A DNA stretch of 61,177 bases from Sporichthya sp. (GTDB lineage: Bacteria; Actinomycetota; Actinomycetes; Sporichthyales; Sporichthyaceae), in the NCBI RefSeq assembly GCF_013815995.1, contig NZ_JACDFE010000002.1, positions 1-61,177 of the forward strand. Direction: 5' to 3'. Positions 11,558 to 61,177 of the stretch are shown piece by piece. Each line of letters opens with the position of its first letter. Within the stretch, counting starts at the first letter, position 1. Under the pieces are notes generated by a model. The model made no database searches, was not told where the DNA came from, and saw only the letters and a program-made list of their open reading frames with translations. Position numbers and translations under genes: made by a program.

Positions 11558-11605
11558 GGACGTCCGAACCATCGTGAGCTATCACGCTCGCCGGTTCGGA
11601 CGTCC
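11558..11605 (+). terminator. Hairpin after UPF0182 gene
   Basis: GGACGTCCGAACC at 11558-11570 pairs perfectly with GGTTCGGACGTCC at 11593-11605 (13-bp stem, 22-nt loop). It starts 18 bases after the stop codon. There is no T-run, as is common for actinobacterial terminators. It separates the protein gene from the tRNA gene. Confidence 0.7.
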
Positions 11606-11631
11606 TGGCCGTTAAGGCTCCGGCAACCGAT

Positions 11632-25473: not shown

Positions 25474-25514
25474 CTAATCCTTGTGTGGTTCACCTGCGGC
25501 GACGGGTGGGCGGT

Positions 25515-26348: not shown

Positions 26349-26371
26349 CGATCTTCCTCCAGGCCCAGCGA

Positions 26372-26389
26372 CAATATAAAATATATTAG
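26372..26389. promoter_or_regulatory. AT-box 3: divergent SDR/BVMO and SnoaL units
   Basis: CAATATAAAATATATTAG lies between the minus-strand SDR start (24 bp away) and the SnoaL-like start (55 bp away). The reversed core reads TCTAATATATTTTA. One box could control both directions. Confidence 0.7.
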
Positions 26390-26444
26390 ATCCCCCGGAA
26401 GTGGGGGTCAACATTCCATCCAGCGCGTACGCAAGGGGAGCGGC

Positions 26445-26864: not shown

Positions 26865-26871
26865 GCGGGAG

Positions 26872-28068: not shown

Positions 28069-28092
28069 TCAGCCTCCCGACCTGGGATTGAC

Positions 28093-28110
28093 GTATATAA
28101 TATATAGTAT
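28093..28110. promoter_or_regulatory. AT-box 4: divergent reductase and hydrolase units
   Basis: GTATATAATATATAGTAT, the longest uninterrupted A/T run of the set with a TATAAT inside, lies between the GTG of the reductase (24 bp away) and the hydrolase gene (78 bp away). Confidence 0.7.
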
Positions 28111-28187
28111 GGCTCACTTCCCACGGCGCTCCTCAACGGGGGAGGCTGAGCGCAGACCACCCCGACCCAGACGAGGTCACAAGAACG

Positions 28188-29189
28188 ATGGACGTGAAGC
28201 TCGACCCCGCGCTCGTCGAGGCGCTGCGGGCGATCCGGGAGGTCCTTCCGGATCCGCGCGGTGATCGCTTCATCGAACAGCTGCGCCGGATGGCCGCGGC
28301 CGGGCGTCCGGATCTGGAGAGCCTCCGCTCGGGAGGCCGCGTGCTGGTCGATGAGCTCGCGATTCCGGGGCCGGCCGCCGGCACCACGCTGAACGTGCTG
28401 TGGCTCCGACCCGCGCGCGCCCAGTCCTCGCCAGTTCCGGCCGTGTACTTCCTGCACCCCGGGGGAATGATCGCCGGAGACAGCCGAACCGGCGCGGGCA
28501 TCCTCATCGACTTCGTGTTGCGGCTCGGCGTGCAGGCGGTGTCGGTCGAATACCGGCTGGCACCCGAGAATCCCTTCCCAGCTCCGCTCGAGGACGCGTT
28601 CGCGGGACTGGAGTGGCTGGCCCGCAACGCAACTCCGCTCGGCGTCGACGCGACGCGGATCGTCGTCGCGGGGGCGAGCGCCGGCGGACACCTCGCGGCG
28701 GGACTCGCCATGATGGCGCGCGACCGCCACACCCCGGCTGTGCGTGGCCTGGTGCTCATCGCCCCGATGCTGGACGACCGCGGCGGGCAGGCCGCACCCT
28801 TGGACGTGGGTCGTGAGGGCACCTGGGGTGTCGATGCGAACCGGGTTGCCTGGGACGCCGTGCTTGGCAATGCCCGCGGCGGCTCCCGGCTCCCGGACTA
28901 CGCGGTACCGGCGCGCGCCGACCTGGCCGGGCTGCCGCCCACGTTCCTCGACGTCGGGTCGGCCGAACTGTTCCACGACGAGACCGTCGAGTTCTCTGCC
29001 GGCCTGCGCAGAGCCGGGGTGCCCACCGAACTGCGCGTGTGGCCAGGCGGCTTCCACGGTTTCGACTGGTCGGTCCCCGGTGCGCCGATCTCGCTGGAGG
29101 CGAAGTCCGCCCGCGTGCGGTGGCTCGCCGAGTTGCTCGACCTTGCTGATGAAGCTGATGAGGTTCGGAATGAAGGGACGCAGAACTGA
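28188..29189 (+). CDS. Alpha/beta hydrolase (hormone-sensitive-lipase type)
   Basis: A 333-residue esterase or lactonase. The oxyanion motif is HPGGM (instead of HGGG), the nucleophile is in GASAGG, the acid is in DVGSAELFHDE and the histidine is in GGFHGFDW. It could open the ester or lactone made by the BVMO-like enzyme. Its stop overlaps the start of the aldehyde dehydrogenase (TGATG). Confidence 0.9.
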   Translation: MDVKLDPALVEALRAIREVLPDPRGDRFIEQLRRMAAAGRPDLESLRSGGRVLVDELAIPGPAAGTTLNVLWLRPARAQSSPVPAVYFLHPGGMIAGDSRTGAGILIDFVLRLGVQAVSVEYRLAPENPFPAPLEDAFAGLEWLARNATPLGVDATRIVVAGASAGGHLAAGLAMMARDRHTPAVRGLVLIAPMLDDRGGQAAPLDVGREGTWGVDANRVAWDAVLGNARGGSRLPDYAVPARADLAGLPPTFLDVGSAELFHDETVEFSAGLRRAGVPTELRVWPGGFHGFDWSVPGAPISLEAKSARVRWLAELLDLADEADEVRNEGTQN

Positions 29190-30685
29190 TGGCTCCAGGC
29201 GATCTTGACCCGAAGTACACGACGAAGTTCCTCGGGCCCGAGCCCAAGCAGCTGCTGATCGGCGGTAAGTGGGTCGACTCGGCCTCAGGCCGGACCTTCG
29301 AAACAGTCAACCCGTCGACCGGGACGGTGATCGCGCGCCTGGCCGAGGCCGACGCACGGGATGCGGATCTGGCGGTTGCCGCGGCCCGCGCCGCGTTCAC
29401 CGGACCGTGGGCTCGCTTCAAGCCCAAGGACCGACAGCGTGTCCTTCTGCAGTTGGCCGACCTGGTCGAGGCCAACCTCGCTGAGCTCTATTACCTCGAC
29501 TCGGTGGACATGGGTGCCCCGATCAGCCGCGCCGCTGGGTACCAGTTCTCCGTCGATGTGCTGCGGTTCGCCGCGGGAGCCGCGATGCGCATCCAGGGCG
29601 AGACGGTGAACAACTCCGTCGCGGTTGCGGACCTGTTTTCCTTCACGCTGAAGGAGCCGGTCGGCGTCGTCGCGTCGATCATTCCCTGGAACGGTCCCCT
29701 GGTTTCCTCGATTGCCAAGATCGCGCCGGTGCTCGCGACGGGCTGCACGATGGTGCTCAAGCCGGCGGAGGAGGCATGCATCTCGCCGCTTCGGCTCGGC
29801 GAGCTGATGGCGCAGTTGGATCTGCCCGACGGAGTCGTCAACATTCTCACCGGCTTCGGCGAGGCGGGCGCCGCGCTGACCGAACATCCGGACGTCGACA
29901 AGGTCGCTTTCACCGGCTCGACCGCAACGGGGCAGCAGATCGTGCGGGCCGCGTCGGGGAACCTGAAGCGGCTCACTCTCGAACTTGGCGGGAAGTCGCC
30001 CGACGTCGTGTTCGCTGACGCCGACCTGGCCAGTGCGGTGCCCGGAGCCGCGATGGGCGTGTTCCGCAACACGGGACAGGTCTGCTGCGCCGGCACCCGG
30101 GTGTACGTCGAACGCCCCGTCTATGACGAGTTCGTCGAGCGGCTTTCCCGCTTCTCCGAGGCGCTGCGGGTCGGCGACAGCCTGGATCCGGAGACGGAGA
30201 TCGGCCCCATCGTGTCCGCCCGTCAGCTGGATCAGGTGCTGAACTATCTGGACGTCGGCCGGTCCGAGGGCGCCCGCCCTACCTCGGGCGGTGCACGCAT
30301 CACCGAGGGTGGCCTGGCCAACGGCTACTTCGTGGCGCCGACCGTCTTCGCCGACGTGCAGGACGACATGCGTATCGCCCGGGAAGAGATTTTTGGCCCG
30401 GTCGCCTCGATTCTGCCATTCGACGACGTCGAGGATGTCGTCGTGCGGGCCAACGACACCCAGTTCGGACTGGGGGCGGGGGTGTGGACCCGTGATCTCG
30501 GCACCGCACACCGGATGGCGCGGGCGCTGCGCAGCGGTGTGGTGTGGGTCAACACCTACGGGAACTTCGATCCGGCGATGCCCTTCGGCGGCGCGAAGAT
30601 GAGTGGGTGGGGCAGCGAGTACAGCGATCACGGGCTCGACGAGTACCTCTACCTCAAGGCTGTCTGGATGGGCGTCGGAAACTGA
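29189..30685 (+). CDS. Aldehyde dehydrogenase
   Basis: A 498-residue aldehyde dehydrogenase with LLIGGKWVDSASG, cofactor motif AFTGSTATG, glutamate in LELGGKSPD and nucleophile in NTGQVCCAG. It is translationally coupled to the hydrolase, which fits oxidation of an aldehyde released after ring or ester cleavage. Second of two such enzymes in the island. Confidence 0.92.
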   Translation: MAPGDLDPKYTTKFLGPEPKQLLIGGKWVDSASGRTFETVNPSTGTVIARLAEADARDADLAVAAARAAFTGPWARFKPKDRQRVLLQLADLVEANLAELYYLDSVDMGAPISRAAGYQFSVDVLRFAAGAAMRIQGETVNNSVAVADLFSFTLKEPVGVVASIIPWNGPLVSSIAKIAPVLATGCTMVLKPAEEACISPLRLGELMAQLDLPDGVVNILTGFGEAGAALTEHPDVDKVAFTGSTATGQQIVRAASGNLKRLTLELGGKSPDVVFADADLASAVPGAAMGVFRNTGQVCCAGTRVYVERPVYDEFVERLSRFSEALRVGDSLDPETEIGPIVSARQLDQVLNYLDVGRSEGARPTSGGARITEGGLANGYFVAPTVFADVQDDMRIAREEIFGPVASILPFDDVEDVVVRANDTQFGLGAGVWTRDLGTAHRMARALRSGVVWVNTYGNFDPAMPFGGAKMSGWGSEYSDHGLDEYLYLKAVWMGVGN

Positions 30686-43750: not shown

Positions 43751-45180
43751 CCTCACCTGCTGGGGTTCAGGTGCGGGTAGCGGGCGCCAAGTCGATCAGT
43801 GAGTTGCTCTTCGCCCCCGCCAGCATCGCCATCGTGGGTGCCTCGAACGACCCGGCGAAGCTCTCCGGTCGCCCGCTCGACTACCTGCGCACCTTCGGGT
43901 TCGCCGGCTCGGTGTACGCCGTCAATCCGTTGCGCCCCGAGGTGCAGGGCATCGCGACCTACCCGAGCGTGACGGCGATCGGAGCGCCAGTCGACCTTGC
44001 GGTCATCGTGGTTCCCGCCGGCCTGGTGCCTGCGGCCGTGGCGGATTGCGCCCAGGCCCGCGTCGGCGTTGCCATCGTCTTCGCGTCGGGGTTCGCCGAG
44101 GCCGCCGCCGGGGGCGCCGACCTGCAGAGCGAGGTCGACGCGGCGATGGCCGGGTCGTCCCTGCGGTTGCTCGGGCCGAACTGTCTCGGATCCTTCGCGC
44201 TGCCGGCGAAGGCCTTCGCGACGTTCTCCTCGGCGTTCGACGAGGCAACGGCGGTGGTGGACGAGCCGATCGCGCTGGTCACCCAGAGCGGCGCGGTCGG
44301 CACGTTCATCTACAGCACCTTCGCGCGCCTAGGCGGCGGCGTGCGCTACTTCGCCAACCCGGGCAACGAAGCCGACCTGACTGTTCCAGATCTCCTGCTC
44401 GATCTGGCCGGCCGCGACGACGTCGACATCCTCGCCGGTCACCTCGAGGGTTTGCGTCGTCCGGACGTGCTCCGGGAAGCCGCGGCCACGGCCCGGGCGG
44501 CCGACAAGCCGATGATCCTGATCAAGGCCGGCCGGACCCCGGAGGGTGGCCGGGCCGTGGCCGCCCACACCGCTTCGGATCCCGGTGATGACGAGGCCTT
44601 CGCCGAACTGGCCCGGGCCGAGGGCATCGTGCGGGTCGACGGCATGGAGTCGATGGTCGACACGCTGCTGGTCTTCCGGCCGCGCCGGCGCGCTGGTGGC
44701 CGCCGGGTCACGATGGTCACCCAGAGCGGCGGGGCCGGCGCGCTGGCTGCTGATGCGACGGTCCATGAAGGCCTGGACCTGGCTCCCTGGTCGGCGTCCG
44801 ATCGTCGCGGGCTCGAGCAGTGCCTACCGGCTTTCGGCTCCGCCCAGAACCCGATCGATGTCACCGGCCGGTTGCTCACCGACCCCGCGCTGCTGCAGCG
44901 GGTGCTCGCCGAGGTCGTGGCGCATGATTCGACGGACGTCGTCCTCGTCCTGCTCGGCAACTCCGACCGGGGCGCCGACGTCATCGTCGAAGGTCTCACC
45001 CGCGCCTACGAGTCCACCGTCAAGCCGTTCGTGGCGGTGTGGACCGGGGGCAATGGATGGGCGCGCCAGGAACTCCTCCGGCTCGGAGTCCCGACGTACA
45101 CCGATCCGACCCGGGCCGTCCGGGCGATCGGGCACCTGGTGAGATTCAGCGAGAGCCGAGCGTCCGGAGTTCGGGGCTGA
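43747..45180 (+). CDS. NDP-forming acyl-CoA synthetase alpha-like protein, no ATP-grasp
   Basis: A 477-residue protein with a CoA-binding domain ([21 protein letters not shown]) and succinyl-CoA-ligase-like domains carrying [11 protein letters not shown] and the phospho-histidine candidate in AVAAHTAS. The C-terminal ATP-grasp domain of the full enzymes is absent, and no separate beta subunit lies next to it. The relative at 51894 has the whole layout. It may be an alpha subunit that borrows a beta partner, or a CoA-binding protein with another job. Confidence 0.83.
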
Positions 45181-46730
45181 TGCCGGAGCTGGAGCAAGTG
45201 GACGTTCTCATCCTCGGCTGCGGTGCGGCCGGTGTCGCGGCCGCTTTGGCGGCCCGCCGAGCCGGCGCCGAAGTAGCGATGATCGAGCACCAAGCCGAGG
45301 ACCGGCACACGCCCAACACGCGGATGTCCGGCGGCTGGTTGATGACCCTGACCGATGAGGTCGCCGGCCGTGGCTACCTGACGGAATGCGCACAGGGTCT
45401 GGTCGAGGACGACCTCATCGCCGGATGGGCCCGGGGCGCGGTGTCCTTGCCGACGGAGCTCAAGGCGCTGGGCGTCGACCTCGAGCTCGCCGACACGGCG
45501 ACGTGGGGACTCTCCCGGCTGGATGTGGAGAAGGACAGCTGGGCCGAGCACGCCGAGATCCCGGGCGCCGATTCGGTCCGGGTCTGGCGGACCGTGACCG
45601 ACCTTCCGTCCACCTGCCCGGCGGCCGGCGGGCTGGCGACGGCCACGGGCACCGTCCTCGGTGGCGAGGCGTTGTACCGCGGACTCATGCACGCGGTCCG
45701 GGCTGCCGGGGTGGAGGTGCGGTGGGGGATCGAGCCGATCTCTCTGATTCTGCGCCAGACCGCGGATGGCACAACGGTGGCCGGCATTCGGTGGCTCGAG
45801 GGCGGAACCGTGCGCGAACTCCGCGCCCGGGGCGGAGTCATCCTGGCCACCGGTGGGTTCGGAGCCGGTCGGGACCTGATCCGGGAGTTCCTGTCCGTCC
45901 CGAACACCCGCTTCTACGGCAACCCGGGCAACGACGGCAGCGGACTCAAGCTGGCCATGTCGGCCGGGGCGGCGTTGGCGCGGATGAATCGCATGGTGGG
46001 TCGCGGCGTGATGAGCTTCCCGCTTGCCGACGGCGTAGAGCTCGGCTTCATGGTCATCATGAAGGGCGGCGGCTATGTCATCTGTGACGACCAGGGCGCC
46101 CGGTACGCCGATGAGTACGACCAGGCGATGCAGCAGCATTCCTTCTTCCACCACATGCAGCACGTGGATCCGCACACCCATCGGTACAGCCGCTCGCCGT
46201 CGTTCTACGTCTTCGACGAGCGCCGTCGGCAGTCGGGTCCGCTGACCTACCAGGACCGGGGCGCCTGCGGTGTGGGCCTCTACGACTGGAGCTCGGACAA
46301 CCAGCGCGAGATCGACGCCGGATGGATCTCGGTGGGTCCGACGCCGGCGGCCGCGGCGGCCGCGGCGGGCGCCGGTTCACCGGAGGCGTTCGAGGCGGCC
46401 ATCGCCGAATACAACCGCGGCTGCCAGGCCGGGAGCGACTCGTTCGGGCGTCCCGCTGACACGCTGATCGCGCTGGACCAGCCGCCGTACTACTGCGTGC
46501 CGCTCTACATCGGTGGTCCCTACGTGACCGGGGGACCACAACGGAACGCCGAGGGCCAGGTTCTCGGCGTGCGCGGCGGACCGGTGCCGGGTCTGTTCAG
46601 TGGCGGGGAACTGGGACAGGCGATCGGGCTGCTCTACCCGGCTCAGGGCGCCTCGATCTCCGAGGCCTGGTGCAGCGGAGCCATCGCCGGTGCTTCGGCC
46701 GCACGAGCAGCTGGTGACTCGCGCCGGTAG
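45180..46730 (+). CDS. FAD-dependent dehydrogenase (fumarate reductase/KstD-like)
   Basis: A 516-residue flavoprotein from ATG 45180 ([26 protein letters not shown]). FAD motif GCGAAG, then RGGVILATGGFGAGRDLIREF, NPGNDGSGLKLAMSAGA and the C-terminal GLFSGGELGQAIGLLYPAQGASIS. This family includes 3-ketosteroid dehydrogenases and fumarate reductase-like enzymes. It probably desaturates a ring next to a carbonyl, though reduction is possible. Last gene of the unit that began at AT-box 6. Confidence 0.85.
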   Translation: MPELEQVDVLILGCGAAGVAAALAARRAGAEVAMIEHQAEDRHTPNTRMSGGWLMTLTDEVAGRGYLTECAQGLVEDDLIAGWARGAVSLPTELKALGVDLELADTATWGLSRLDVEKDSWAEHAEIPGADSVRVWRTVTDLPSTCPAAGGLATATGTVLGGEALYRGLMHAVRAAGVEVRWGIEPISLILRQTADGTTVAGIRWLEGGTVRELRARGGVILATGGFGAGRDLIREFLSVPNTRFYGNPGNDGSGLKLAMSAGAALARMNRMVGRGVMSFPLADGVELGFMVIMKGGGYVICDDQGARYADEYDQAMQQHSFFHHMQHVDPHTHRYSRSPSFYVFDERRRQSGPLTYQDRGACGVGLYDWSSDNQREIDAGWISVGPTPAAAAAAAGAGSPEAFEAAIAEYNRGCQAGSDSFGRPADTLIALDQPPYYCVPLYIGGPYVTGGPQRNAEGQVLGVRGGPVPGLFSGGELGQAIGLLYPAQGASISEAWCSGAIAGASAARAAGDSRR

Positions 46731-46787: not shown

Positions 46788-48128
46788 GTGAGCAGCAGCG
46801 ACCTGGCGCCGACCCCGGGCACCACGTGTCCTGTGGAGAGGATCGACATCACGTGCCCGGTGGAGAAGATCGCTGGCCTTGCGGACGCGTTCGCGACGCT
46901 GCGGTCGAAGGATGTCCTGCACTCGGCGGCAATCTGGTCTGCTGCCCACCGGGACCCGACCCCCGAGGCGCTCACCTGCCTGCGCGAGTACACCGACAAC
47001 GTCATCACCTTCGCCAACGGGGAGTCCCACCGCGGTCGTCGGCGCCTGCTGAACCAGCTGGTCCGCCCGGAAGCGATCGACGTCATCCGCGACACCATCG
47101 TCCTGCCGAGGTCGCGAGAGCTGCTCCAGCGACTGGCTACCGGGCCGGACGCCGAGGGCCGGTACCGCTTCGACCTCGTGACCTTCTGCGAGCGAGTGTT
47201 CCTGCACTTCTCCGCGAAGTTCATCGGCTTCGTCGGGACCGAAACCGACGAGCAGATGGAACGTCTGCGGGGGTGCGTCGGGCCGCTGTCGGGCGCCGTC
47301 GCCTCTGCGTTCTACAAGGATCGGGCCGGCATCTTGGCCGCGGCTGCCGAGGCCAAGGCCCGCTACATCGAGGAGTTCTACCTCCCCTCGCTGGCCGCCG
47401 CGCGGGCCGCCCTCGCCGACCGTCCGGCGGATGAGTCGGGCGCCGTCGAGCCGCCGCGGAACTTCATGGAGATCGTCGCTAGTGGCGTGCATGCCGAATG
47501 GGACGACGAGGCGCTGGCCATCCGGGACTCCGTCCTGCTGTTCTCGGCGAGCGTCGGATCGAGCACGCAGACCATCGTGAATGCCGTCGCGGGCCTGACC
47601 ACCTGGTTCGCCGAGCACCCCGAGGACTACGAGCAGAGCACGGACTACAACTTCCTCCTCGATGCGATCCAGGAGGCGCTGCGCCTGAACTCCCCGTTCT
47701 CGCCCTACGTCACCCGGGTCGCAGCCCGCGAAGCCGTCGTCGGAGAGCACACGCTGGCCGAGGGTCAGGAGATCCACGTCTATCTGCCGACCGCGGGTCA
47801 GGATCCCTCGGTGTGGGGCCCCGACGCAGCGGCCTTCAACCCGCGGCGACCAACCCCCGAGGGCTGGAACCGCCACGGAATCGCCTTCAGCGCCGGCCCG
47901 CACCAGTGCCTGGGTCAGCGGGTGGTTCTCGGTAGCGACGGCACCGGCGGGGCGCACGTCCGCGTTCTGCAGACCCTGTACCGCGCGGGCGTGCAACCGG
48001 ATCCGGACAGCCCGCCGAAGTCGATCGAGCGGGTGGTGCGGGAGCAGCCCGACCCGTTCGAGGTGGACCTGAAGCGCTGGACGTCGTACCCGGTCGTGCT
48101 CGACGACCTCGACCCGACCGACTCCTGA
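46788..48128 (+). CDS. Divergent cytochrome P450 (trio member 1)
   Basis: A 446-residue P450. Cys374 lies in the haem motif FSAGPHQCLGQ and the K-helix ExxR is EALR (296-299). The I-helix (about 246-262) reads SVLLFSASVGSSTQT, so the usual acid of AGxDT is missing. After the haem Cys comes GQRVVLGSDGTGGAH instead of the usual GxxLAR. GTG 46788, six bases after AGGAGG, is preferred to ATG 46761, which is inside AT-box 7. First of three tandem paralogues overlapping or abutting each other. Confidence 0.88.
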   Translation: MSSSDLAPTPGTTCPVERIDITCPVEKIAGLADAFATLRSKDVLHSAAIWSAAHRDPTPEALTCLREYTDNVITFANGESHRGRRRLLNQLVRPEAIDVIRDTIVLPRSRELLQRLATGPDAEGRYRFDLVTFCERVFLHFSAKFIGFVGTETDEQMERLRGCVGPLSGAVASAFYKDRAGILAAAAEAKARYIEEFYLPSLAAARAALADRPADESGAVEPPRNFMEIVASGVHAEWDDEALAIRDSVLLFSASVGSSTQTIVNAVAGLTTWFAEHPEDYEQSTDYNFLLDAIQEALRLNSPFSPYVTRVAAREAVVGEHTLAEGQEIHVYLPTAGQDPSVWGPDAAAFNPRRPTPEGWNRHGIAFSAGPHQCLGQRVVLGSDGTGGAHVRVLQTLYRAGVQPDPDSPPKSIERVVREQPDPFEVDLKRWTSYPVVLDDLDPTDS

Positions 48129-49465
48129 TGGCCAACAGAAAATTCGATCCCGAAGTCGACGTCGAGCCACTCACGTCGTGCCCGGCTTTCGCCGTGGACG
48201 GCTGGGACGACGTGGTCGCCACGCTCCGGTCCAAGGACATCGTTCATTCCGCCGCGATCCTGGCCGGCGCGCACCGCGACCCGGAGCCAGGCGGACAGGG
48301 CGAGGTCTGCCTCCGCGAATTCATCGGCAACGCCCTGACGTTCTCGAACGGCGACTCCCATCGCACCCGCCGCCGGGTACTGAACCAACTGGTCCGGCCG
48401 GCCGCGCTGGACGTGTTTCGGGACGAGGTCATCGCGCCGGAGGCGGCAGCGCTGCTGCCCCGCGTTATCCACGGACCGGGCGAGGACGGCAAATACCGAC
48501 TCGACCTGATCAAGTTCTGCGACCGGGTCTTCCTCCACTTCGCCGCGAAGTTCATCGGGCTGGTGGACATCGACACCGACGAGCGGATGGAGCGGCTCCG
48601 GGAGTGCGTCACCCCGCTGTCCAACGCCGTCACCTCAGTGTTCTACAAGGACCGCGCGGCGATCATTGCGCAGGCGCTCGAGGCCAAGGACCAGTACCTG
48701 AAGGAGTTCTACCTCCCCTCGCTGGAAGCGCAGCGCGAGTGGCGGGCCGGCACCGACGGGCGGATCCCCGACGACCTGCCGATGAACTTCCTGCAGCTCG
48801 TGCTCGAGGGTTCGGACCCGCAGTACGCGGATCAGGACCTGGCCATCCGTGACTCGGTGATCCTGTTCGTCGGATCGGTCGCCTCCAGCACGATGGCCAT
48901 CGTCAACACGGTGGCGGACCTGGCCGGCTGGTTCGCCGAACATCCCGAGGACCACGAGCGCCGGACCGACTATGGGTTCCTGTTCGACGCGTTGCAGGAG
49001 TCGTTGCGGCTGCGCTCGCCGTTCTCGCCGTATGTGTTCCGGATGGCCCGTCGCGACACCTCGATCGGTGGTGAGCCGGTCCAGGAGGGCCAGGAGCTCC
49101 ATGTGTCCATCCCGCGCGCCGATCGTGACCCGAGCGTGTGGGGGCCCGACGCGGCCCGATTCAACCCGCGGCGTGAGGTGCCCGAGGATGTCCGCCGGTA
49201 CGGCATCGCATTCGGGGTCGGGGAGCACCTGTGCCTGGGCCAGCGCGTGGTCATGGGCAGTGACGGCACCGGCGGCTCGCACGTTCGGGTCCTGCAGTTG
49301 CTCTACGCCGCCGGGGTCCGGCCGGACCCGGACAATCCACCGGCCGTGATCGAGCGGGCCGACACCGGCGCGAAGTCGGACGGGCTCGACCTGCCGCGCT
49401 GGTACGACTTCCCCGCTGTGCTTGAGGACTGGACGCCGGCTCAGGCCGAGGCGGCGCGCCCATGA
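48128..49465 (+). CDS. Divergent cytochrome P450 (trio member 2)
   Basis: A 445-residue paralogue of trio member 1, starting at the last base of its stop. Haem Cys369 in FGVGEHLCLGQ, ExxR as ESLR, I-helix SVILFVGSVASSTMA with no acid, and the same RVVMGSDGTGGSH insert. The N-terminal LTSCPAFAV and LRSKD blocks are shared by all three. Substrate unknown. Confidence 0.88.
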   Translation: MANRKFDPEVDVEPLTSCPAFAVDGWDDVVATLRSKDIVHSAAILAGAHRDPEPGGQGEVCLREFIGNALTFSNGDSHRTRRRVLNQLVRPAALDVFRDEVIAPEAAALLPRVIHGPGEDGKYRLDLIKFCDRVFLHFAAKFIGLVDIDTDERMERLRECVTPLSNAVTSVFYKDRAAIIAQALEAKDQYLKEFYLPSLEAQREWRAGTDGRIPDDLPMNFLQLVLEGSDPQYADQDLAIRDSVILFVGSVASSTMAIVNTVADLAGWFAEHPEDHERRTDYGFLFDALQESLRLRSPFSPYVFRMARRDTSIGGEPVQEGQELHVSIPRADRDPSVWGPDAARFNPRREVPEDVRRYGIAFGVGEHLCLGQRVVMGSDGTGGSHVRVLQLLYAAGVRPDPDNPPAVIERADTGAKSDGLDLPRWYDFPAVLEDWTPAQAEAARP

Positions 49466-49478
49466 GATGGAGGACCCG

Positions 49479-50831
49479 ATGAGCATCCAAGACGACGACG
49501 AGGTGGTCGCGCCGCTCACGTCCTGCCCCGTGGCGCATGTCCGCGGCTCGGCGGCGGCGACGGCTGCGCTGCGCTCGAAGGACCTGCGGAACTCGGACCA
49601 GATGTGGGCCGGGATCTTCCACCAGCCCGGCGTGGAGTCCGAGACCTGCTTGCGTGAGTTCGTGAAGAACGACATCACGTTCACCAATGGGGAAGCCCAT
49701 CGGACCCGGCGCAAGCTGCTCAATCAACTGGTCCGACCTGCCGCCCTGGACCTATTCCGCGACGAGATCCTCGAGCCCCAGTCGGTCACCCTGCTGCCGC
49801 GCTTCGTCACCGGTCCGGATGCCGACGGCCGCTACCGGGCCAACCTCAACCCGTTTTGCGACCGGCTCTTTCTGCACTTCGCGGCGAAGTTCGTCGGCCT
49901 GGTCGGGCTCGACACGGACGACCAGATGGAGCGGCTACGGACGCTCGTCAGCCCGATCACGGCGGCCTTCAGCTCGGCGTTCTACGACAACCGCGCCGAG
50001 ATCCACGCGGCGGCGCTGGATGCCAAGGCGAAGTACATCGAGGAGTACTACTACCCGTCCCTGGAGGCGCAGAGGCTGGCGCTGAAGGAGAAGGACGCCG
50101 CCGGTCCGGACGCTGATCCGGAGCCGATGAACTTCCTGCAGTTGGTGGCCAGCGGAGCGCACCCGGACTACCTGGATGAGCAGCAGGCCATCCGCGAGTC
50201 GCTCATCCTGTTCAACGCATCGGTCGGGACCAGCACCCAGACGATCATCAACTGCGTCGCGGACCTGAGTGCCTGGTTGGAAGAGCACCCCGGGGACCGG
50301 GTTCGGTGCGAGGACGACAAGTTCCTGTTCGCCGCCATGGAAGAGTCCTTGCGGCTGCGGTCTCCGTTCGCCCCGTATCTCTTCCGGCTGGCGGCCCGCG
50401 ATACCCGGATCGGCGATCAGGATGTGATCAAGGGTCAGGAAGTTCATATCTCGATCCCGGCCGCGAACCGGGACACCGCGGTCTGGGGTCCCGATGCGGC
50501 GGCCTTCAACCCGCTCCGCACGACGCCGGGTGATCTGCGGGCCTACGGACTCGGCTTCAGCGTCGGGCCGCACCAATGCCTGGGACAGCGGGTCGTGATG
50601 GGCAGCGACGGAACGGGGGGCGCCCACCTGCGCGTGCTGTCCCGGCTCTTCGCGGTCGGCGTGCGTCCCGATCCCGACAACCCGCCGGCCATCCTGCCGC
50701 GCTCGGCGAAGGTCGTACAGCCGACCGACGATGCAGGCGAGCCGATCGATGTGGTGCGCTGGACGTCGTTCCCGGTGGTGTTCGATCGGTGGGACCCCCA
50801 GGCCGAAGCGGCCAATGCCACGGCTCCCTGA
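49479..50831 (+). CDS. Divergent cytochrome P450 (trio member 3)
   Basis: A 450-residue paralogue from ATG 49479 (MSIQDDDEVVAPLTSCP), eight bases after GGAGGA. Haem Cys367 in FSVGPHQCLGQ, ExxR as ESLR, I-helix SLILFNASVGTSTQT without an acid, and RVVMGSDGTGGAH after the cysteine. The C-terminus is longer (QPTDDAGEPIDVVRW). Its stop is followed 14 bases later by the MaoC-N-type gene. Confidence 0.88.
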   Translation: MSIQDDDEVVAPLTSCPVAHVRGSAAATAALRSKDLRNSDQMWAGIFHQPGVESETCLREFVKNDITFTNGEAHRTRRKLLNQLVRPAALDLFRDEILEPQSVTLLPRFVTGPDADGRYRANLNPFCDRLFLHFAAKFVGLVGLDTDDQMERLRTLVSPITAAFSSAFYDNRAEIHAAALDAKAKYIEEYYYPSLEAQRLALKEKDAAGPDADPEPMNFLQLVASGAHPDYLDEQQAIRESLILFNASVGTSTQTIINCVADLSAWLEEHPGDRVRCEDDKFLFAAMEESLRLRSPFAPYLFRLAARDTRIGDQDVIKGQEVHISIPAANRDTAVWGPDAAAFNPLRTTPGDLRAYGLGFSVGPHQCLGQRVVMGSDGTGGAHLRVLSRLFAVGVRPDPDNPPAILPRSAKVVQPTDDAGEPIDVVRWTSFPVVFDRWDPQAEAANATAP

Positions 50832-50845
50832 GAAGAGGAACGACC

Positions 50846-51427
50846 ATCCCTGATTTCTCGTGGGCCGAGCGCGACGACTGGGAGCGGGCCTGGGACCCGC
50901 TGGTGGCGCAGATCGGGCAGGACTTCTCCGAGGGCTCGTACGACGCCCTCGACGCCATCGAGGCGGGCGCGGTCCGGCGGTTTCTTGAGCCGTTGGAGTT
51001 CGACTGTCCGCTGCATGTCGACGAGCAGGTCGCCGCGGCCCACGGCTATGCGGGGATCATCGCGCCGTACAGCGGCCTGGCGACGTGGATCTCGGCCGGG
51101 CTGTGGAACTCGGGCGACGAGCCGATCTATGCCGGGGCCGACCGCAATGCGCACCCGCGCTGGCGGGTGAATCCGTACCCCACGCCAGGGCCGGACATCA
51201 ACGGACGCACGGCCACCGACCTTCAGTACGACTACGTGCGGCCGTTCGCCGTGGGGGACAAGCTGCGTTCCTGCGGGCGGATCCTGACCTCCGTCACCCC
51301 CAAGGAGACACGAGTCGGCCGCGGCGCTTTCTTGACCTGGGAGTCGAAGGTCGTCAACCAGGTGGACGCGCTGATCGCCGAGGTCCACTTCGGGGTCTAC
51401 AACTACGTCGCCCGCGTGCGCGGGTAG
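50846..51427 (+). CDS. MaoC-N-type hot-dog protein (non-catalytic partner), unusual start
   Basis: A 193-residue protein by my reading (IPDFSWAERDDWERAWDPLVAQIGQ...). It matches the N-terminal FAS1-type MaoC domain, with no D-x4-H pair. No ATG, GTG or TTG gives the expected N-terminus: the best ribosome site (AGAAGAGGA) is followed by ATC at 50846. It may start at ATC, at CTG just before, or at a later GTG, so the start is tentative. It is followed 11 bases later by the catalytic MaoC gene, as in heterodimeric hydratases. Confidence 0.7.
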   Translation: MPDFSWAERDDWERAWDPLVAQIGQDFSEGSYDALDAIEAGAVRRFLEPLEFDCPLHVDEQVAAAHGYAGIIAPYSGLATWISAGLWNSGDEPIYAGADRNAHPRWRVNPYPTPGPDINGRTATDLQYDYVRPFAVGDKLRSCGRILTSVTPKETRVGRGAFLTWESKVVNQVDALIAEVHFGVYNYVARVRG

Positions 51428-51438
51428 CGGGAGCAGAC

Positions 51439-51897
51439 ATGGCGGACTGGACGTCCCAGCGGTACTGGGAGGACGTGGCGGAGGGCGACAGCCTGCCCGC
51501 GCTGGGCTTCCCGCTGTCCGTGCACCGGCTCATCGTGGCCGCCGGCGCGAGCAAGGACTTCGCGCAGATTCATCACAACACCGAGGTTGCCCGGGCACAG
51601 GGCGCCGGTGACATGTACGCGAGCAACGTGCTGCTGCTCGGTATGTGGGAGCGCGTCGTCCGCGAGTACATCGGTCTGGACGGCGTGATCGTGCGCATCG
51701 GACCGCTGCGGATGAAGCAGTTCGCGACGGCGGGCGAGACGGTGACGGTGCGGGCGAGCGTGACCAGGAAGTGGAGCGAGGACGATCGCGCTCTGGTGGA
51801 GATCGCCCTGCGTTCCGAGATCTCGACCGGCGATGCCGTGACCGGTGTAGTTCGGGTCGCACTGCCGCGGAGAACGCCCGTGGCGCAGACGCCGTGA
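51439..51897 (+). CDS. MaoC-type enoyl-CoA hydratase, catalytic subunit
   Basis: A 152-residue hot-dog protein from ATG 51439 (MADWTSQRYWEDVAEGDSLPAL). The hydratase motif D-x4-H is present in SKDFAQIHHN. Paired with the preceding gene, it resembles heterodimeric MaoC hydratases that act on bulky CoA substrates such as steroid side chains. Its stop overlaps the next GTG by four bases. Confidence 0.85.
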   Translation: MADWTSQRYWEDVAEGDSLPALGFPLSVHRLIVAAGASKDFAQIHHNTEVARAQGAGDMYASNVLLLGMWERVVREYIGLDGVIVRIGPLRMKQFATAGETVTVRASVTRKWSEDDRALVEIALRSEISTGDAVTGVVRVALPRRTPVAQTP

Positions 51898-54062
51898 CCA
51901 TCCGGTCCGGCTCAACCGAAGGCGGGTCTCGCGGCGTGGATACGACCAAGGCACTGGACGCGATCATCAATCCGAGTTCGGTCTGCATCATCGGGGCTAC
52001 TGAGGGCACCCGGATGTCGGGCCGATCGCTGACGCACCTTCTCGCCCACGGCTACGGCGGCGAGATCTACCTGGTCAATCCCCGACGCCAGGAGGTGGCA
52101 GGCCGGGTCTGCTACCCCTCGGTGGCGGCATTGCCCGAGGTGCCGGACACCGCGATCATCGTCAGTCCCGCCGCCACCGTGCTGCCCGTGCTGCGGGAGT
52201 GCGCCGAGCGGGGCATCCGGACGGCGACGGTGGTGGCGGCCGGGCTGACCGAAGGTGCGGCGGGCGCCGACGCGGAGCAGTTCCGGACGGCGCTTCGCGC
52301 CACCCTCGATGAGACCGGGATGCGGATCCTCGGCCCCAATACGCCTGGCCTGGTGAACCTTCGCGCGAAGTACGCCCCGCGCGCCGCCTCCCTCGGCCCG
52401 GCCGACACGATGGTTGCCGGAAACCTGGGCATCGTGTCCCAGAGCGGTGCCCTCGGCCTGACCGCGTTGAACAAGGCCGTGCTACACGGCGTGGGTGTCC
52501 ACGCTGTCGTGCACACCGGCAACCAGTTCGACATCGACGTGTGGGATGTCGCGGAGTACTTCCTCCAGGACGACCGCGTCGAGATCATCGCGATGGTCAT
52601 CGAAGGCTTCAAGGACCCCGACCGGTTCCTGGCCGTCGCCGCGGCCGCGCGGGAGGCGCGCAAGCCGATCCTCCTGTTGAAGGTGGGGACGTCCCGGGCC
52701 GGCGCCGCGGTCGTCACCACCCACTCCGGTGCCCTCGCGGGTGAGGCGGCGGTGCATCGCTCCGTGCTGGCCCAGGCGAACGTCGTGCAGGTCGACGACA
52801 TCGATCAGCTGTGGGAGGTCGCCCAGCTCTTCCAGCGATGGGGAGTTCCGCGCGCGCCGATCCGGCGGCTGGCCGTGGCGGCGTTGTCCGGAGGCGAAGC
52901 CGCGATCGCCGCGGACATCGCCGAAGCGAGCGGCTTCGAGCTCCCGCCGCTGTCGTCGGCCACCGTGGCGAAGCTGGAGCCGCTGTTCTCTTTCGCCGAG
53001 TTCGGCAACCCCTTCGACATCACCGCTCAGTTCACCTCCGATCCCTCGCTGATCGACAGCACGCTGTCGGCGCTGGCCGCGGACTCCAACTTCGACGCCC
53101 TGCTCGTCACGCTGTCGAACATGCCGCCCAACGCGGCGACTGATCTGATCGCGACCTGGATCGCCGACCACGCCGAGGACGCCCGACCGGTGGGTGTGGC
53201 CTCCCGGGTCGTGTCCAGCTACGCCCTTCCCACCCGACTCGAGTGGGCGGCTGGGCAGGTGCCGGTGCTCGAAGGTTGCGAACGCTTCGTCGGAGCACTG
53301 CGGCTCTACAGCGACTACGCCGGCAGCCTGGCGGATCGACTCGACCGCCACGTCCGGCGGCGGTCGCAGTCCTGCCAGCACCACGGTGGCGATGGAGCGT
53401 TGGCGGCGGCGCCGCGCATCCTGGGCTATTGGGAGTCGCGCCAGATCCTGGGCGAGCTCGACCTGCCCTTCAACAACGCGGCCATCGTGGCGACGGCCGC
53501 GGATGCCGAGGCGGCGGCATCGCGGATGACGATGCCGGTCACGGTCAAGGCCAGTTCCGTCGACATCGTGCACAAGGCCGCTGTGGGTGCCGTCCACGAC
53601 CTCGTCCCCAGCGCAGCCGAGGTGGGCACGATTGCCGCGGGCATGCTGGCGCGCTGGTGGCCCTCCGGTCCGCCCGCTGTCGCCGCGGGGGAGGGCGTCA
53701 TCGTGGAAGGCTTCGTGCAGTCGCGGCTAGCGGTCTTCGTCGGATGTCGACGCGATCCGGAGTTCGGGCCGATGGTGCTCTTCGGCCTGGGTGGCAGCTA
53801 TGCCGAGGCTTATGGCGACGTACTCAGCGTGCCGTGGCCGAGCGCGGCGGACGAGTTGCCGGTGTTGGTCGAGCGGTCGCGGATCGGTGGGTTGCTCGGA
53901 CGGCTCGCGTCATCGGCGGTGGGCGAACTCGTCCGCCACCTGAGCACGGTGGGTGAGTGGTTCGCCGAACATCCAGACGTCGAGTCGGTGGACCTCAACC
54001 CGCTGCTGGTCAACGGTTCCGGAGAGGGGTGTTTCGTCGACGCCCGGGTTGCGCTCTTCTGA
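51894..54062 (+). CDS. NDP-forming acyl-CoA synthetase, full length
   Basis: A 722-residue enzyme. CoA-binding domain (VCIIGATEGTRMSGRSL), succinyl-CoA-ligase domains with VSQSGALGLTAL and the phospho-histidine in VTTHSGALAG, then a C-terminal ATP-grasp half (PVTVKASSVDIVHKAAVGAV, VEGFVQSRLAVFVGCRRD, DLNPLLV). It makes an acyl-CoA from acid and CoA with ATP or GTP. GTG 51894 overlaps the MaoC stop; a second GTG at about 51936 is possible. Confidence 0.9.
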   Translation: MTIRSGSTEGGSRGVDTTKALDAIINPSSVCIIGATEGTRMSGRSLTHLLAHGYGGEIYLVNPRRQEVAGRVCYPSVAALPEVPDTAIIVSPAATVLPVLRECAERGIRTATVVAAGLTEGAAGADAEQFRTALRATLDETGMRILGPNTPGLVNLRAKYAPRAASLGPADTMVAGNLGIVSQSGALGLTALNKAVLHGVGVHAVVHTGNQFDIDVWDVAEYFLQDDRVEIIAMVIEGFKDPDRFLAVAAAAREARKPILLLKVGTSRAGAAVVTTHSGALAGEAAVHRSVLAQANVVQVDDIDQLWEVAQLFQRWGVPRAPIRRLAVAALSGGEAAIAADIAEASGFELPPLSSATVAKLEPLFSFAEFGNPFDITAQFTSDPSLIDSTLSALAADSNFDALLVTLSNMPPNAATDLIATWIADHAEDARPVGVASRVVSSYALPTRLEWAAGQVPVLEGCERFVGALRLYSDYAGSLADRLDRHVRRRSQSCQHHGGDGALAAAPRILGYWESRQILGELDLPFNNAAIVATAADAEAAASRMTMPVTVKASSVDIVHKAAVGAVHDLVPSAAEVGTIAAGMLARWWPSGPPAVAAGEGVIVEGFVQSRLAVFVGCRRDPEFGPMVLFGLGGSYAEAYGDVLSVPWPSAADELPVLVERSRIGGLLGRLASSAVGELVRHLSTVGEWFAEHPDVESVDLNPLLVNGSGEGCFVDARVALF

Positions 54063-55936: not shown

Positions 55937-57124
55937 ATGGTTGCCCAAGAGGAGTTCGATCACGTCGCGTTAGCCGGTGAGGTGGACCCCTACGCCATCG
56001 TGCGCGGACTGCGGGAGCAGTGCCCGGTTGCGCACTCCTCGCAGTACGGAGGGTTCTACGCGTTCACGCGTTTCGAGGACGTGTGGAACGCCGCGCTGGA
56101 CACCGCGGCCTGGTCCTCAGCCGAGAACGGGGCCACGATTCCCCGGTACTCCCCGATCAACCTGTTGCCGATCGAGTGCGATCCACCCGACCACTCGGTC
56201 TACCGCCGGATGTTCCTGCCGCTCATGTCCAGGTCGGCCTTGGCGCCCCTCGAGTCGCGGATGCTGGAGGTCGTCAACGACCTGCTCGATGAGGTCATCG
56301 AGCGCGGTGAGTGCGACCTCGTGGGAGATGTGCTGTTCCCGATGGCGACCGTCGGGCTTTCGCACCTGTACGGGCTCGACCCGGAGCAGACCGAGAAGAT
56401 CGAGCGCAGCGCGGTGAACGCCCTCAAGCTCGGCGGTCCCGAAGCTGCCATGCCGTTGTTCATGGCGTTCGCCGAGCTCGTGGGCCAGCGTCGGGCGCAA
56501 CCGGGCGAAGACATTCCCAGCATGCTCATCGCCGCTCGGGTCGACGGCGAGCCGATCCCGGAGCAGGACCTCATCGGGGCGTGCGTCTCGGTGTTCTCTG
56601 CCGGCTTCGACACCGTGGTCAGCGCGTGCGCGCACTCCTTCGACCTGCTGGAGTCGAATCCCGACCAGCGGGCGTGGCTCATCGAGGACCCGAGCCGGAT
56701 TCCCAACGCGATGGAAGAACTGCTGCGCTACGTGTCCCCGCTGCCCGGACTGGCCCGCACGGCGACCGCTGATCTCGAAGTGGGGGACTGCAAGATTCCC
56801 AAGGGCGACCGGGCGATGTTGATGTTCCTGGCGGCGAATCACGACCCCGAGCAGTACCCCGAACCCGAGAAACTGCAGCTGGATCGCAACGCCTCGAAGC
56901 ACGTCGCCTTCGGTGCCGGGCCGCATCGCTGCCTCGGTGCCCCGCTCGGTCGGCTGGAGCTCGAGGCCGCCCTGCGCGTGGTTCTCACCCGCATCCCGGA
57001 CTACACGATTCCTGATCGCTCGAAGGTCGTCCGCGTCGGCGGCGTGACCCGCACGGTGACGTCCCTGCCCATCAGCTTCACCCCAGGCCCTCGGCTCAAG
57101 CCGCCGGCCGCCAATGTCGGCTGA
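55937..57124 (+). CDS. Cytochrome P450 (canonical)
   Basis: A 395-residue bacterial P450. The I-helix FSAGFDTVVSA has the usual acid and threonine, ExxR is EELLR and the haem Cys332 lies in FGAGPHRCLGAPLGRLELE. It follows the textbook pattern, unlike the trio. It is 15 bases from the NDMA-type alcohol dehydrogenase, which suggests hydroxylation followed by oxidation. ATG 55937 after GGAAGGA. Confidence 0.93.
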   Translation: MVAQEEFDHVALAGEVDPYAIVRGLREQCPVAHSSQYGGFYAFTRFEDVWNAALDTAAWSSAENGATIPRYSPINLLPIECDPPDHSVYRRMFLPLMSRSALAPLESRMLEVVNDLLDEVIERGECDLVGDVLFPMATVGLSHLYGLDPEQTEKIERSAVNALKLGGPEAAMPLFMAFAELVGQRRAQPGEDIPSMLIAARVDGEPIPEQDLIGACVSVFSAGFDTVVSACAHSFDLLESNPDQRAWLIEDPSRIPNAMEELLRYVSPLPGLARTATADLEVGDCKIPKGDRAMLMFLAANHDPEQYPEPEKLQLDRNASKHVAFGAGPHRCLGAPLGRLELEAALRVVLTRIPDYTIPDRSKVVRVGGVTRTVTSLPISFTPGPRLKPPAANVG

Positions 57125-57139: not shown

Positions 57140-58258
57140 GTGAAGTCAAAGGCGTCGATCCTGCGCTCATCCCCGGGGGAGTACGAGTCGGCTGTCGTCG
57201 AACTCGACACTCCGCATCAGCACGAGGTGCTGGTGCGCCTGGTCGCATCCGGGTTGTGCCACTCCGACGACCACGTTGCCAAGGGCGACCTGATCCCGCC
57301 GCTGCTGCCGTTCTGTGGCGGTCACGAGGGTGCCGGAGTTGTGGAGGAGGTCGGGTCGGCCGTCGTCGGCCTGGCGCCCGGTGACCACGTCGTCTTCTCG
57401 TTCATCCCCAGCTGTGGCCGGTGCCGCTACTGCGCGCGGGGGCAGCAGAACCTGTGCAACAACGGCCTGCACGCCTTCACCGGCGAGCGGCTCGAAGAGC
57501 CCGGCAGCTTCCGGATGACGCTGGACGGTGCGCCGGTCGCCCAACTCGCCTCGGCCTCCACGTTCTCGGAGTACACGCTGGTCGATCAGCGATCGCTGGT
57601 GAAGGTGCCCGAGGAGTACGACCTCACGAAGATCTGCCTGCTGGGCTGTGCGGTGGGCACCGGGTGGGGAGCGGCCGTGAACTCGGCCGCCGTCCGGCCT
57701 GGCGACACCGTGATCGTGATGGGCGTCGGTGGGATCGGAATCAACGCCGTCCAAGGCGCCGCCAACGCGGGCGCCCTGCACGTCATCGCGGTCGATCCAG
57801 TGGAGTTCAAGCGGGAGAAGGCGCTGGAGCTCGGGGCGACGAAAGCGTTCGGCAACATGGCCGAGGCGGCGGACTTCGCGCGGAGCGTCACCGACGGCCA
57901 GGGCGCGGACTCCTCGATCGTCACCGTCGGCGTCACGACGGGTGAGCACATCGCGGAGGCCTTCGCCGCGATCGGTAAGGGCGGGACGACGGTCGTGACC
58001 GGCATCGGCCCGATGACCGCCGTGGGAATCCCGGTCTCCGCCGTTGATCTGACGCTCAATCAGAAGCGCCTACAGGGGTCGTTGTACGGCGCCTGTGCAC
58101 CCAGCGCCGATGTGCACCAGCAGCTCGCCCTATACCGCAGCGGCAAGCTGAAGCTGGATGAGCTCATCACGACGACGTACAAGATCGATGAGATCTCCAA
58201 GGCCTACGAGGACCTGCACGCCGGCAAGAACATTCGTGGCGTTGTGCTGTTCGACTGA
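57140..58258 (+). CDS. NDMA-dependent-type zinc alcohol dehydrogenase
   Basis: A 372-residue zinc alcohol dehydrogenase. [26 protein letters not shown], structural cysteines [15 protein letters not shown] and cofactor motif [14 protein letters not shown]. The sequence closely follows the mycofactocin-linked, NDMA-dependent class of actinobacterial alcohol dehydrogenases, whose NAD stays bound and is reoxidised by an outside acceptor. No mycofactocin genes are in the window. GTG start after GAGGAG. Confidence 0.88.
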
Positions 58259-58291: not shown

Positions 58292-58615
58292 GTGGAGAGT
58301 AAACCGTTGACCGAGCACGAGATCGGTCCTGTGGACGATGTGAAGCCGGGCTTCCTGCGACAGGTCTCCGTCGACGGCGTCGGCCTGTGTGTCGGCCGAC
58401 TGATGGACGGCACCTTGTTCGCGGTCGATGAGATGTGCACCCACGAGGAGGTGTCTCTCGTCGACGGCTACGTGGACGGTGACGAGGTCGAGTGTCCCGC
58501 GCACGGCTCTCGGTTCGACGTCCGAACCGGAGCCGTCACCGGAGAGCCGGCGCGTGTGCCTGTGCGCTGCTTCGCGCTCCGCGTCGAGGGCGAGAAGACG
58601 TTCGTCGCACTGTAG
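58292..58615 (+). CDS. Rieske-type [2Fe-2S] ferredoxin
   Basis: A 107-residue electron carrier. The cluster ligands are CTHEE (CxH) and CPAHG (CxxH) in a domain of BphA3 size. It would accept electrons from the reductase at 26872. No Rieske oxygenase alpha subunit is visible, so its partner is probably the P450 two genes upstream. GTG start after GAAGAGGA. Confidence 0.9.
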   Translation: MESKPLTEHEIGPVDDVKPGFLRQVSVDGVGLCVGRLMDGTLFAVDEMCTHEEVSLVDGYVDGDEVECPAHGSRFDVRTGAVTGEPARVPVRCFALRVEGEKTFVAL

Positions 58616-59508: not shown

Positions 59509-59552
59509 GCTCATAACCCAGAGGTCGTAGGTTCAAATCCTACCCCCGCTAC
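59509..59552 (+). repeat. attR: right 44-bp tRNA-fMet repeat
   Basis: Perfect copy of 11706-11749 (GCTCATAACCC ... CCCCGCTAC). There is no 5' half, so it is not a second tRNA gene. It forms the right end of the island. The antisense reading of this repeat gives the end GVGFEPTTSGL of the truncated recombinase. Confidence 0.92.
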
Positions 59553-60032
59553 GACCCGCAGTCCGGTCTGAACAGCGAGGAGCAGCAGAGCGTGGTCGCG
59601 TCGGCCTTCCCAGCGGGCGCGGTCCGGGGCGGCGAGCAGCGCGTCGACCTCGCCGGGTGAGAGGTAGGTGACGACGGCGCGCTGGCAGCGCTTCGGCGGT
59701 ATCGCCAGCACGTGTGCGATCACCGATGCGTGTTCGGGGTGACGCAGCGCAGCGAAACGGAACAGCGAGTGCACCGCGGCCAGGCGGGCGTTGCGGGTCC
59801 GGGCGCTGTTGTGGCGGTCGCGTTCGAGGTGGTCCAGGAACGCGCCGATCATCGCGGCGTCGAGGTCGCCGATCTCCAGGGTGTGGGGGGCTTTGCCGGT
59901 GCGGTCGTGGACGAAGCTCAGCAGCAGCCGGAACGTGTCGCGGTAGGCGAGCACGGTGTGTGGGCTGACCCGGCGCTGGGCGATCAGCCGGTCGGTGAAG
60001 AAGGCCTGCAGGGTCGGGGCGAGGAGGGTCAT
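59511..60032 (-). pseudogene. Tyrosine recombinase C, cut off by attR
   Basis: Starts at ATG 60032 (MTLLAPTLQAFFTDRLIAQRRVSPHT), overlapping recombinase B by four bases. The core-binding domain (LAYRDTFRLLLSF) and the first catalytic block LLLLAVQTGLR, with the first active-site Arg, are present. Sequence then switches to VVAGVGFEPTTSGL, which is simply antisense tRNA. The HxxR motif and the catalytic Tyr are lost, so it cannot work. The cut lies exactly at the edge of attR. Confidence 0.88.
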
Positions 60033-60955
60033 GCCGGGCCCCCGAAGCTGGCTTCGAGCCGCGCGGCGGCCAGCGCGAGGAGTTCGGGTGCCGCGGTGAG
60101 GTACCAGTAGGTGGCGGCGGGGTCGACGTGACCGAGGTAGGTCGACAGGGCCGGCATCCGGGCCTGCACGTCTTGGCCGTCGCGGTACCAACCGAGCAGG
60201 GTCGCCACCGCAAAGGAATGGCGCATGTCATGAATGCGCGGACGGGACCCCACCGCCCGCTCCTCGATGCCGGCCTCATGCAGCAGCCGACGGAAGATCG
60301 GCTGGACGGTGGCGTGGCACAGTCGCGCCCCTGATACCGAAACGAAGAAGCTTGCCGTCTTCGGCGACGGGCACAGGCTCTCGCGCCGTAGGTCGTACTC
60401 ACGCAGGGCGTCCAGGGTGCTGGCATGCAGGGGAAGCTGGCGGGACTTGCCGAATTTGGTCTCCCGCACGAGCAGGCGCCGCCCGGCCCAGTCGATGTCA
60501 TCGCGGTCCAGGCGCATCGCCTCCCCGCCCCGCATCCCGGTGCAGGCCAGCAGAGCGATCAGCGTCGCGAACGTCGCCGAGCGCAATGGGCCAGGCAGGT
60601 CCCGGGCCGCGGTGATCAACGCCGCGATGTCGGCCTCGGAATACAGGTAGGGCGTGGCGCGATGGGCCCGGCCCGGCAGCAGGTCCGTCGGCGGAACCTC
60701 GGCGGCGGCGTCGATGGTCTGTAGGTAGCGGGCGAATTGGCGCACCACACCGAGTCGCTGGTTGATCCAGACCGGACTCGCGCCCGCGGGCAGGCCCGCC
60801 CACGCGAGCGCGACCTCGATGGTGACCGTCTCGATTCCGGCGCGGGCGGTGAAGACCGCGAAGTCGGCGAGCAGACGCCCCGGCGCTTCCAGCTTGAACC
60901 CCAGCGCGCGGCGTATCGCCAGGTAGGCCTCGACATGGTCGCTCAGCGCGGTCAT
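60029..60955 (-). CDS. Tyrosine recombinase B
   Basis: A 308-residue site-specific recombinase with the full active site: Arg in CTGMRGGEAMRL, Lys in RETKFGKSRQL, HxxR in HDMRHSFA, and LGHVDPAATYWYL with the Tyr nucleophile. It starts at ATG 60955 and overlaps both neighbours by four bases. It is the only one of the three visible in full. Confidence 0.9.
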   Translation of the reverse strand: MTALSDHVEAYLAIRRALGFKLEAPGRLLADFAVFTARAGIETVTIEVALAWAGLPAGASPVWINQRLGVVRQFARYLQTIDAAAEVPPTDLLPGRAHRATPYLYSEADIAALITAARDLPGPLRSATFATLIALLACTGMRGGEAMRLDRDDIDWAGRRLLVRETKFGKSRQLPLHASTLDALREYDLRRESLCPSPKTASFFVSVSGARLCHATVQPIFRRLLHEAGIEERAVGSRPRIHDMRHSFAVATLLGWYRDGQDVQARMPALSTYLGHVDPAATYWYLTAAPELLALAAARLEASFGGPA

Positions 60956-61177
60956 GACCGCGCCTGCGGCCACGGCCGGGCCAGCACCGCGAGGGCGGTT
61001 CCGTCGACCTTGGCGTAGATCGCGGTGGTGAGCGCCCTGGCGTGGCGAAGGACCTGACCGACTTCGGTGAGGTCCGCCCCGGAGCGCAGCAACTCACTCG
61101 CCGTCGTGTGGCGCAGCCGGTGCGCACCGCAGGGCGCGACCCCGGCGCGGTGGCAGGCGCGCCGCACGACCGCGGAC
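60952..61177 (-). CDS. Tyrosine recombinase A (C-terminal part)
   Basis: The gene runs off the right edge. The visible end has HRLRHTTASELL (HxxR motif), GQVLRHARALTTAIYAKVD with the catalytic Tyr, and the tail PWPQARS. It is upstream of B on the minus strand with a four-base overlap. Three tyrosine recombinases in a row is the layout of recombinase-in-trio (RIT) elements. Confidence 0.85.
   Translation of the reverse strand, partial: SAVVRRACHRAGVAPCGAHRLRHTTASELLRSGADLTEVGQVLRHARALTTAIYAKVDGTALAVLARPWPQARS

Follow-up and report, generated by a model that had tools for sequence, protein, structure and literature searches.

Three cytochrome P450 genes lying in tandem between positions 46,788 and 50,831 of a 61,177-nucleotide stretch of DNA from Sporichthya sp. 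(the window, contig NZ_JACDFE010000002.1) encode proteins that, as judged from their phylogeny, belong to a deep and rare P450 clade. Throughout this clade the canonical acidic residue of the I-helix is lost, nearly all members carry an Asp or Glu ten residues upstream, and the segment that follows the haem cysteine is altered; genes for Rieske-type ferredoxins recur beside several of its members. The reading favored here, held with somewhat better than even confidence, is that the trio are intact (by prediction) O2- and NAD(P)H-dependent, class-I-like monooxygenases of alicyclic catabolism fed by a Rieske-type ferredoxin.

All three genes are on the plus strand. The first (T1, 46788-48128) begins with GTG behind AGGAGG, within an open frame that extends from 46761; the start of the second (T2, 48128-49465) shares one base with the T1 stop; and the third (T3, 49479-50831) begins with ATG at 49479, the GTG at 46788 and this ATG being the best starts for their frames. 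An earlier note on this DNA had described the three frames, their I-helix strings, the ExxR motif, the haem cysteine, and a RVV(L/M)GSDGTGG segment, and each of these is exactly as claimed. Pairwise identity within the trio is 55-58%, versus about 25% to a fourth P450 of the same gene island (55937-57124, plus strand), an ordinary enzyme with the I-helix motif AGFDT. The haem cysteine loop FxxGxHxCxG and the ExxR motif place the trio in the PF00067 superfamily, and the haem cysteine (47907-47909 in T1), ExxR, and the C-helix HxxxR are retained throughout. The Pfam p450 model scores 56-64 bits against a cut-off of 22.8, the best-matched stretch in the trio being the C-terminal part only (the fourth P450 is likewise matched), and comparison of T2 with the closest solved structures gives E values of about 6e-12. 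A P450-derived glycosyltransferase activator (TIGR04515) was considered and ruled out, since the trio scores 33-46 bits where the cut-off is 343 and keeps the haem cysteine. The N-terminal CP once taken as a mark of the trio proved unspecific, as it is shared by the fourth island P450, and a promoter and terminator scan gave no signal above chance.

Where P450s have (A/G)Gx(D/E)T in the I-helix, the trio has ASVGSS, GSVASS, and ASVGTS, within the strings FSASVGSSTQT (T1, 47541-47573), FVGSVASSTMA (T2, 48866-48898), and FNASVGTSTQT (T3, 50211-50243). The acid site can be assigned to Gly/Ala, with the alcohol kept, because in an independent profile alignment the Gly of the family pairs with the Glu of “GGHETT” in TamI, a P450 of solved structure. 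The same alignment bears out the proposal of the earlier note that the I-helix acid is missing, with the refinement that, of the canonical Asp/Glu-Thr pair, the following Ser/Thr is retained, so that half of the acid-alcohol pair survives. With positions numbered from the first Ala/Gly of the motif, the canonical acid falls at +3; it is found in none of the 24 clade proteins and in 27 of the 32 alignable ordinary P450s, all 32 of which come from the trio's own genome. The remaining five ordinary enzymes have His (four) or Ala (one) at this site. The contention that the change is specific to the trio thus holds with respect to the fourth island P450 but not for the genome as a whole.

An Asp or Glu at -7, ten residues before the canonical site, occurs in 23 of 24 clade proteins and in no ordinary P450 (0/32); in the trio it is Asp in T1 (47526-47528) and T2 (48851-48853) and Glu in T3 (50196-50198). 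The idea that this residue is simply the usual cap acid of the I-helix displaced in the alignment is rejected because most clade members have an acid near the cap, at -12 (15/24), besides that at -7; ordinary P450s have their cap acid at -11 (30/32) and none at -7. Helix periodicity would place the -7 acid a little under three turns above the canonical site, on a nearby face. The structure of DoxA shows the residue at the neighboring position -8 (our transfer of the numbering) closing off the substrate pocket at its far end (PMC12979805), so that the new acid of the clade could serve as part of a proton path or as a substrate binder. In the wider clade the I-helix reads AG(A/S)H(S/T)(S/T) or similar; two such P450s stand in tandem in genome G397 (loci L021 and L023, C1:1195553-1197879) with His at the acid site (AGAHTT, AGSHST).

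The second structural departure lies just after the haem site, where all three trio P450s carry RVV(L/M)GSDGTGG (the GSDGTGG portion at 47931-47951 in T1, 49256-49276 in T2, and 50601-50621 in T3). The segment had been called an insert; it is present, but only about two net residues are additional, and otherwise the beginning of the L-helix has been remodeled and is rich in Gly. Across the wider clade this change spans 2-13 residues. An AlphaFold model built from five sequences is of low confidence (pLDDT 61, pTM 0.65), and its PDB matches shown are all P450s, at TM scores of about 0.45; it has two helix pieces, 368-374 and 382-392, separated by the Gly-rich segment. Because such a model is too weak for side-chain placement, whether an acid from elsewhere in space takes the place of the missing one was judged on sequence alone.

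The distinctness of the group does not depend on the traits used to describe it. In a tree of the 24 clade proteins and 30 ordinary P450s from which the I-helix and post-cysteine columns had been removed, the acid-less clade falls on one side of a branch with support of 100/100; the comparison set comes from the trio's own genome, and named CYP families are outside the tree. Within the clade, a Rieske-linked subfamily of 14 proteins, comprising the trio together with Sphingobium, Amycolatopsis, and Mycolicibacterium members, is supported at 100/99, as is the monophyly of the trio. The distinct P450 group that the earlier note had suspected, marked by the acid-less I-helix and the Gly-rich segment after the cysteine, is therefore, on phylogenetic grounds, real and deeper than the note saw, its trait not being private to the trio. 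What that note overlooked, as the alignments and gene neighborhoods indicate, is the clade-specific Asp/Glu ten residues upstream in the I-helix and the Rieske ferredoxin neighbor.

Members of the clade are scattered. The trio has relatives within its own genome (on contig C54), in two species of its genus, in its family, and in other actinobacterial genomes, as well as in Amycolatopsis sp. GM8 and Mycolicibacterium sp. CBMA 234; others are carried by plasmids of Sphingobium, Novosphingobium, Paracoccus, and Streptantibioticus. When 85,462 genomes were scanned, patterns drawn from the close family returned only two loci, an undercount because these patterns miss the Sphingobium members. Relatives are likewise scarce in samples of the phylum, the class, and Mycobacteriaceae, and in the family of the Mycolicibacterium member a relative occurs in one of 251 genomes; no relatives were found on viral contigs. 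This rare and patchy distribution suggests that the clade has spread by horizontal transfer. The trio itself, being monophyletic in the tree, is a local tandem expansion produced by duplication, and the duplicated enzymes have probably divided among themselves in substrate or position specificity. Around the single-copy relatives at loci L025, L026, L027, L028, L030, and L031 lies a conserved catabolic cluster with Amidohydro_2 proteins that are 86-89% identical and, as named by sequence reading, aldehyde dehydrogenases, MmgE/PrpD-like proteins, and luciferase-family proteins. On the Streptantibioticus cattleyicolor plasmid (L086), a wider-clade P450 with the motif VAAHTS stands in an unannotated region beside apparent biosynthetic genes.

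The neighborhoods of the relatives, collected by P450 similarity and independently of any ferredoxin, provide the evidence for the proposed electron donor. A Rieske ferredoxin is encoded directly with the P450 at seven loci (L025, L026, L028, L035, L084, L085, and L088). On the Sphingobium plasmid pTK2 (L084), the P450 gene (9932-11281) is overlapped by four bases by a Rieske gene (11278-11610), which is followed by a diflavin reductase gene; plasmid pMI1 has the same order and the same four-base overlap, and a second, separate P450 of pTK2 overlaps a Rieske gene of its own, likewise by four bases. In Amycolatopsis and Mycolicibacterium, the Rieske gene, a reductase (BphA4-like in Amycolatopsis), and the P450 occur together, and in two species of the window's genus a Rieske gene abuts the P450. 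Across genomes G397, G754, and G755, a small Rieske gene lies within 3 kb of three of four family P450s and within 5 kb of none of the roughly 140-150 ordinary P450s in a list that leaves out the weakest matches (Fisher p ~1e-5, with positions compared by eye and approximate gene counts). That a Rieske-type ferredoxin can serve a P450 has an experimental precedent, as SpFdx4 is reported to be the natural partner of DoxA (PMC12979805). In the trio's own genome, a Rieske ferredoxin gene on contig C374 (L108, 5853-6164) encodes the protein closest to a P450-linked Rieske ferredoxin of the same genus; it adjoins a short-chain dehydrogenase/reductase (SDR) gene resembling the SDR beside that same-genus P450, and no P450 was found on C374.

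The window holds candidates for both donor proteins: a single-domain Rieske [2Fe-2S] ferredoxin (58292-58615, plus strand) and an HcaD/BphA4-like ferredoxin reductase (26875-28068, minus strand). Under the favored reading, electrons would pass from NAD(P)H through this reductase and this ferredoxin to the P450, the ferredoxin docking on a proximal face reshaped by the L-helix change. Protons would reach the Fe-O2 center via the surviving Ser/Thr and a chain of water molecules for which the Gly makes room, a chain that perhaps ends at the new I-helix acid, although that acid may instead bind substrate. A more ambitious proposal, which we hold to be less likely than not, is that the clade rebuilt oxygen activation and electron supply jointly, with a carboxylate nearly three turns earlier in place of the canonical acid and a proximal L-helix reshaped for a dedicated Rieske-type ferredoxin. 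If so, it would represent a new class of P450 redox system that occurs in both Actinomycetota and Pseudomonadota. Textbooks give the acid-alcohol pair as the proton relay of P450s, and P450 systems are classified in part by the type of their ferredoxin; a clade with a relocated acid, some of whose members travel with a Rieske ferredoxin, allows both ideas to be tested by exchanging two residues and one partner. The clade also points to catabolic P450s for alicyclic compounds that have yet to be exploited.

A number of observations weigh against a Rieske donor for the trio. The Rieske gene of the window lies 7.5 kb from the trio, after the ordinary P450 and a Zn-type alcohol dehydrogenase (57140-58258, plus strand, by sequence reading), and so may serve that P450. 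A Fer2-type ferredoxin gene directly follows the family P450 in the window's genus and could encode the donor; at L030 and L031 there is no Rieske gene in the approximately 10 kb examined on either side; the tree does not support the P450-linked Rieske proteins as a single P450-specific clade; and the L-helix change occurs in wider-clade members that have no Rieske neighbor, so that the two are not strictly coupled. The Fer2 neighbor also fits the view that the trio are ordinary monooxygenases able to use any ferredoxin of the cell ([2Fe-2S], 3Fe-4S, or 4Fe-4S), with loss of the acid tolerated, as the five acid-less ordinary P450s of the genome would allow, and with the Rieske protein serving another enzyme. 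The window also encodes a 4Fe4S/7Fe-type ferredoxin (13690-14013), another possible donor. Yet the surroundings of the Rieske gene in the window, at L025, and at L026 showed no Rieske oxygenase alpha subunit, the Rieske frames overlap two different family P450s on Sphingobium plasmids, and the Rieske link is absent from the ordinary P450s listed. This view is rated rather unlikely.

The other alternatives concern chemistry and assembly. That an altered proton path steers the enzymes toward an unusual reaction, be it desaturation, C-C cleavage, or ring contraction, rather than plain hydroxylation is unlikely; in its favor are the ring-dehydrogenase-like gene upstream of the trio and the general knowledge that an acid-less pocket favors peroxo species in some P450s. 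Peroxygenase or otherwise peroxide-driven activity, which the earlier note had raised, is less probable still: the missing acid recalls the CYP152 enzymes (PMC5818669), but no clade member has the Arg-Pro of that family, the trio having Gly/Ala-Ser/Thr, and the idea is disfavored because of this, the normal FGxGxHxCxG loop, and the ferredoxin, ferredoxin reductase, or diflavin reductase genes co-encoded with relatives. An obligate heterotrimer, or one or two P450s acting as non-catalytic helpers, is very improbable, for although the genes are in tandem with all three frames open, each protein has the cysteine and ExxR, and the origin of the trio by duplication as one recent clade with mostly single-gene relatives leaves a complex of three unsupported.

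The genes around the trio suggest what it may act upon. Upstream is an FAD-binding dehydrogenase resembling 3-ketosteroid and oxocyclohexanecarboxylate dehydrogenases (45039-46730); after T3 follow a MaoC/FAS1-type dehydratase domain protein (50753-51427, start uncertain), a second MaoC/HadB-like protein (51427-51897), and an ADP-forming acyl-CoA ligase (open frame 51645-54062, the true start being later), all on the plus strand. Further island genes encode a Baeyer-Villiger-looking flavin monooxygenase, an esterase, aldehyde and alcohol dehydrogenases, acyl-CoA ligases, an acyl-CoA dehydrogenase, hydratases, and MaoC-type proteins. Such a set is expected for alicyclic ring degradation, and we infer an alicyclic, terpenoid- or steroid-like substrate for the island. 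At 23803-30682, a Baeyer-Villiger-like flavin monooxygenase, an SDR, the HcaD-like reductase, an Abhydrolase_3 esterase, and an aldehyde dehydrogenase stand together in what looks like a block for cyclic-ketone degradation. Overlapping minus-strand frames at the island edge (59511-61127) are tyrosine recombinase-like, and the G+C content, 0.73 at 1-6000 versus about 0.67 at 10000-60000, is consistent with an acquired island.

Comparison with known systems places the trio among, and yet apart from, several established types. Like class I bacterial P450s, it has the haem-thiolate signature and ExxR and, in its relatives, a co-encoded ferredoxin and FAD reductase; unlike them, its clade lacks the usual I-helix acid and has instead a shifted one, a Gly-rich break in the L-helix, and a candidate ferredoxin of Rieske type. 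CYP51 and other P450s have His at the acid position, as does the wider clade in its AG(A/S)H(S/T)(S/T) motif, whereas the trio has Gly/Ala. The CYP152 peroxygenases (BSbeta, OleT) share the missing I-helix acid, but there Arg-Pro replaces the acid-alcohol pair (PMC5818669), the cysteine loop is altered, and H2O2 takes the place of a redox partner, in contrast to the Ser/Thr and normal loop of the trio's family. DoxA, which works with SpFdx4 and SpFdR3, resembles the proposed system in having a Cys2His2 ferredoxin of Rieske type as its partner, but it differs in keeping its acid-alcohol pair (Asp264-Thr265) and in having its ferredoxin encoded in the suf cluster, apart from the P450 (PMC12979805). 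Finally, the candidate electron chain of the window comes from the same families as the BphA3/HcaC Rieske ferredoxins and BphA4/HcaD reductases of the ring-hydroxylating dioxygenases; in those systems the terminal enzyme is a Rieske oxygenase, and here it would be a P450.

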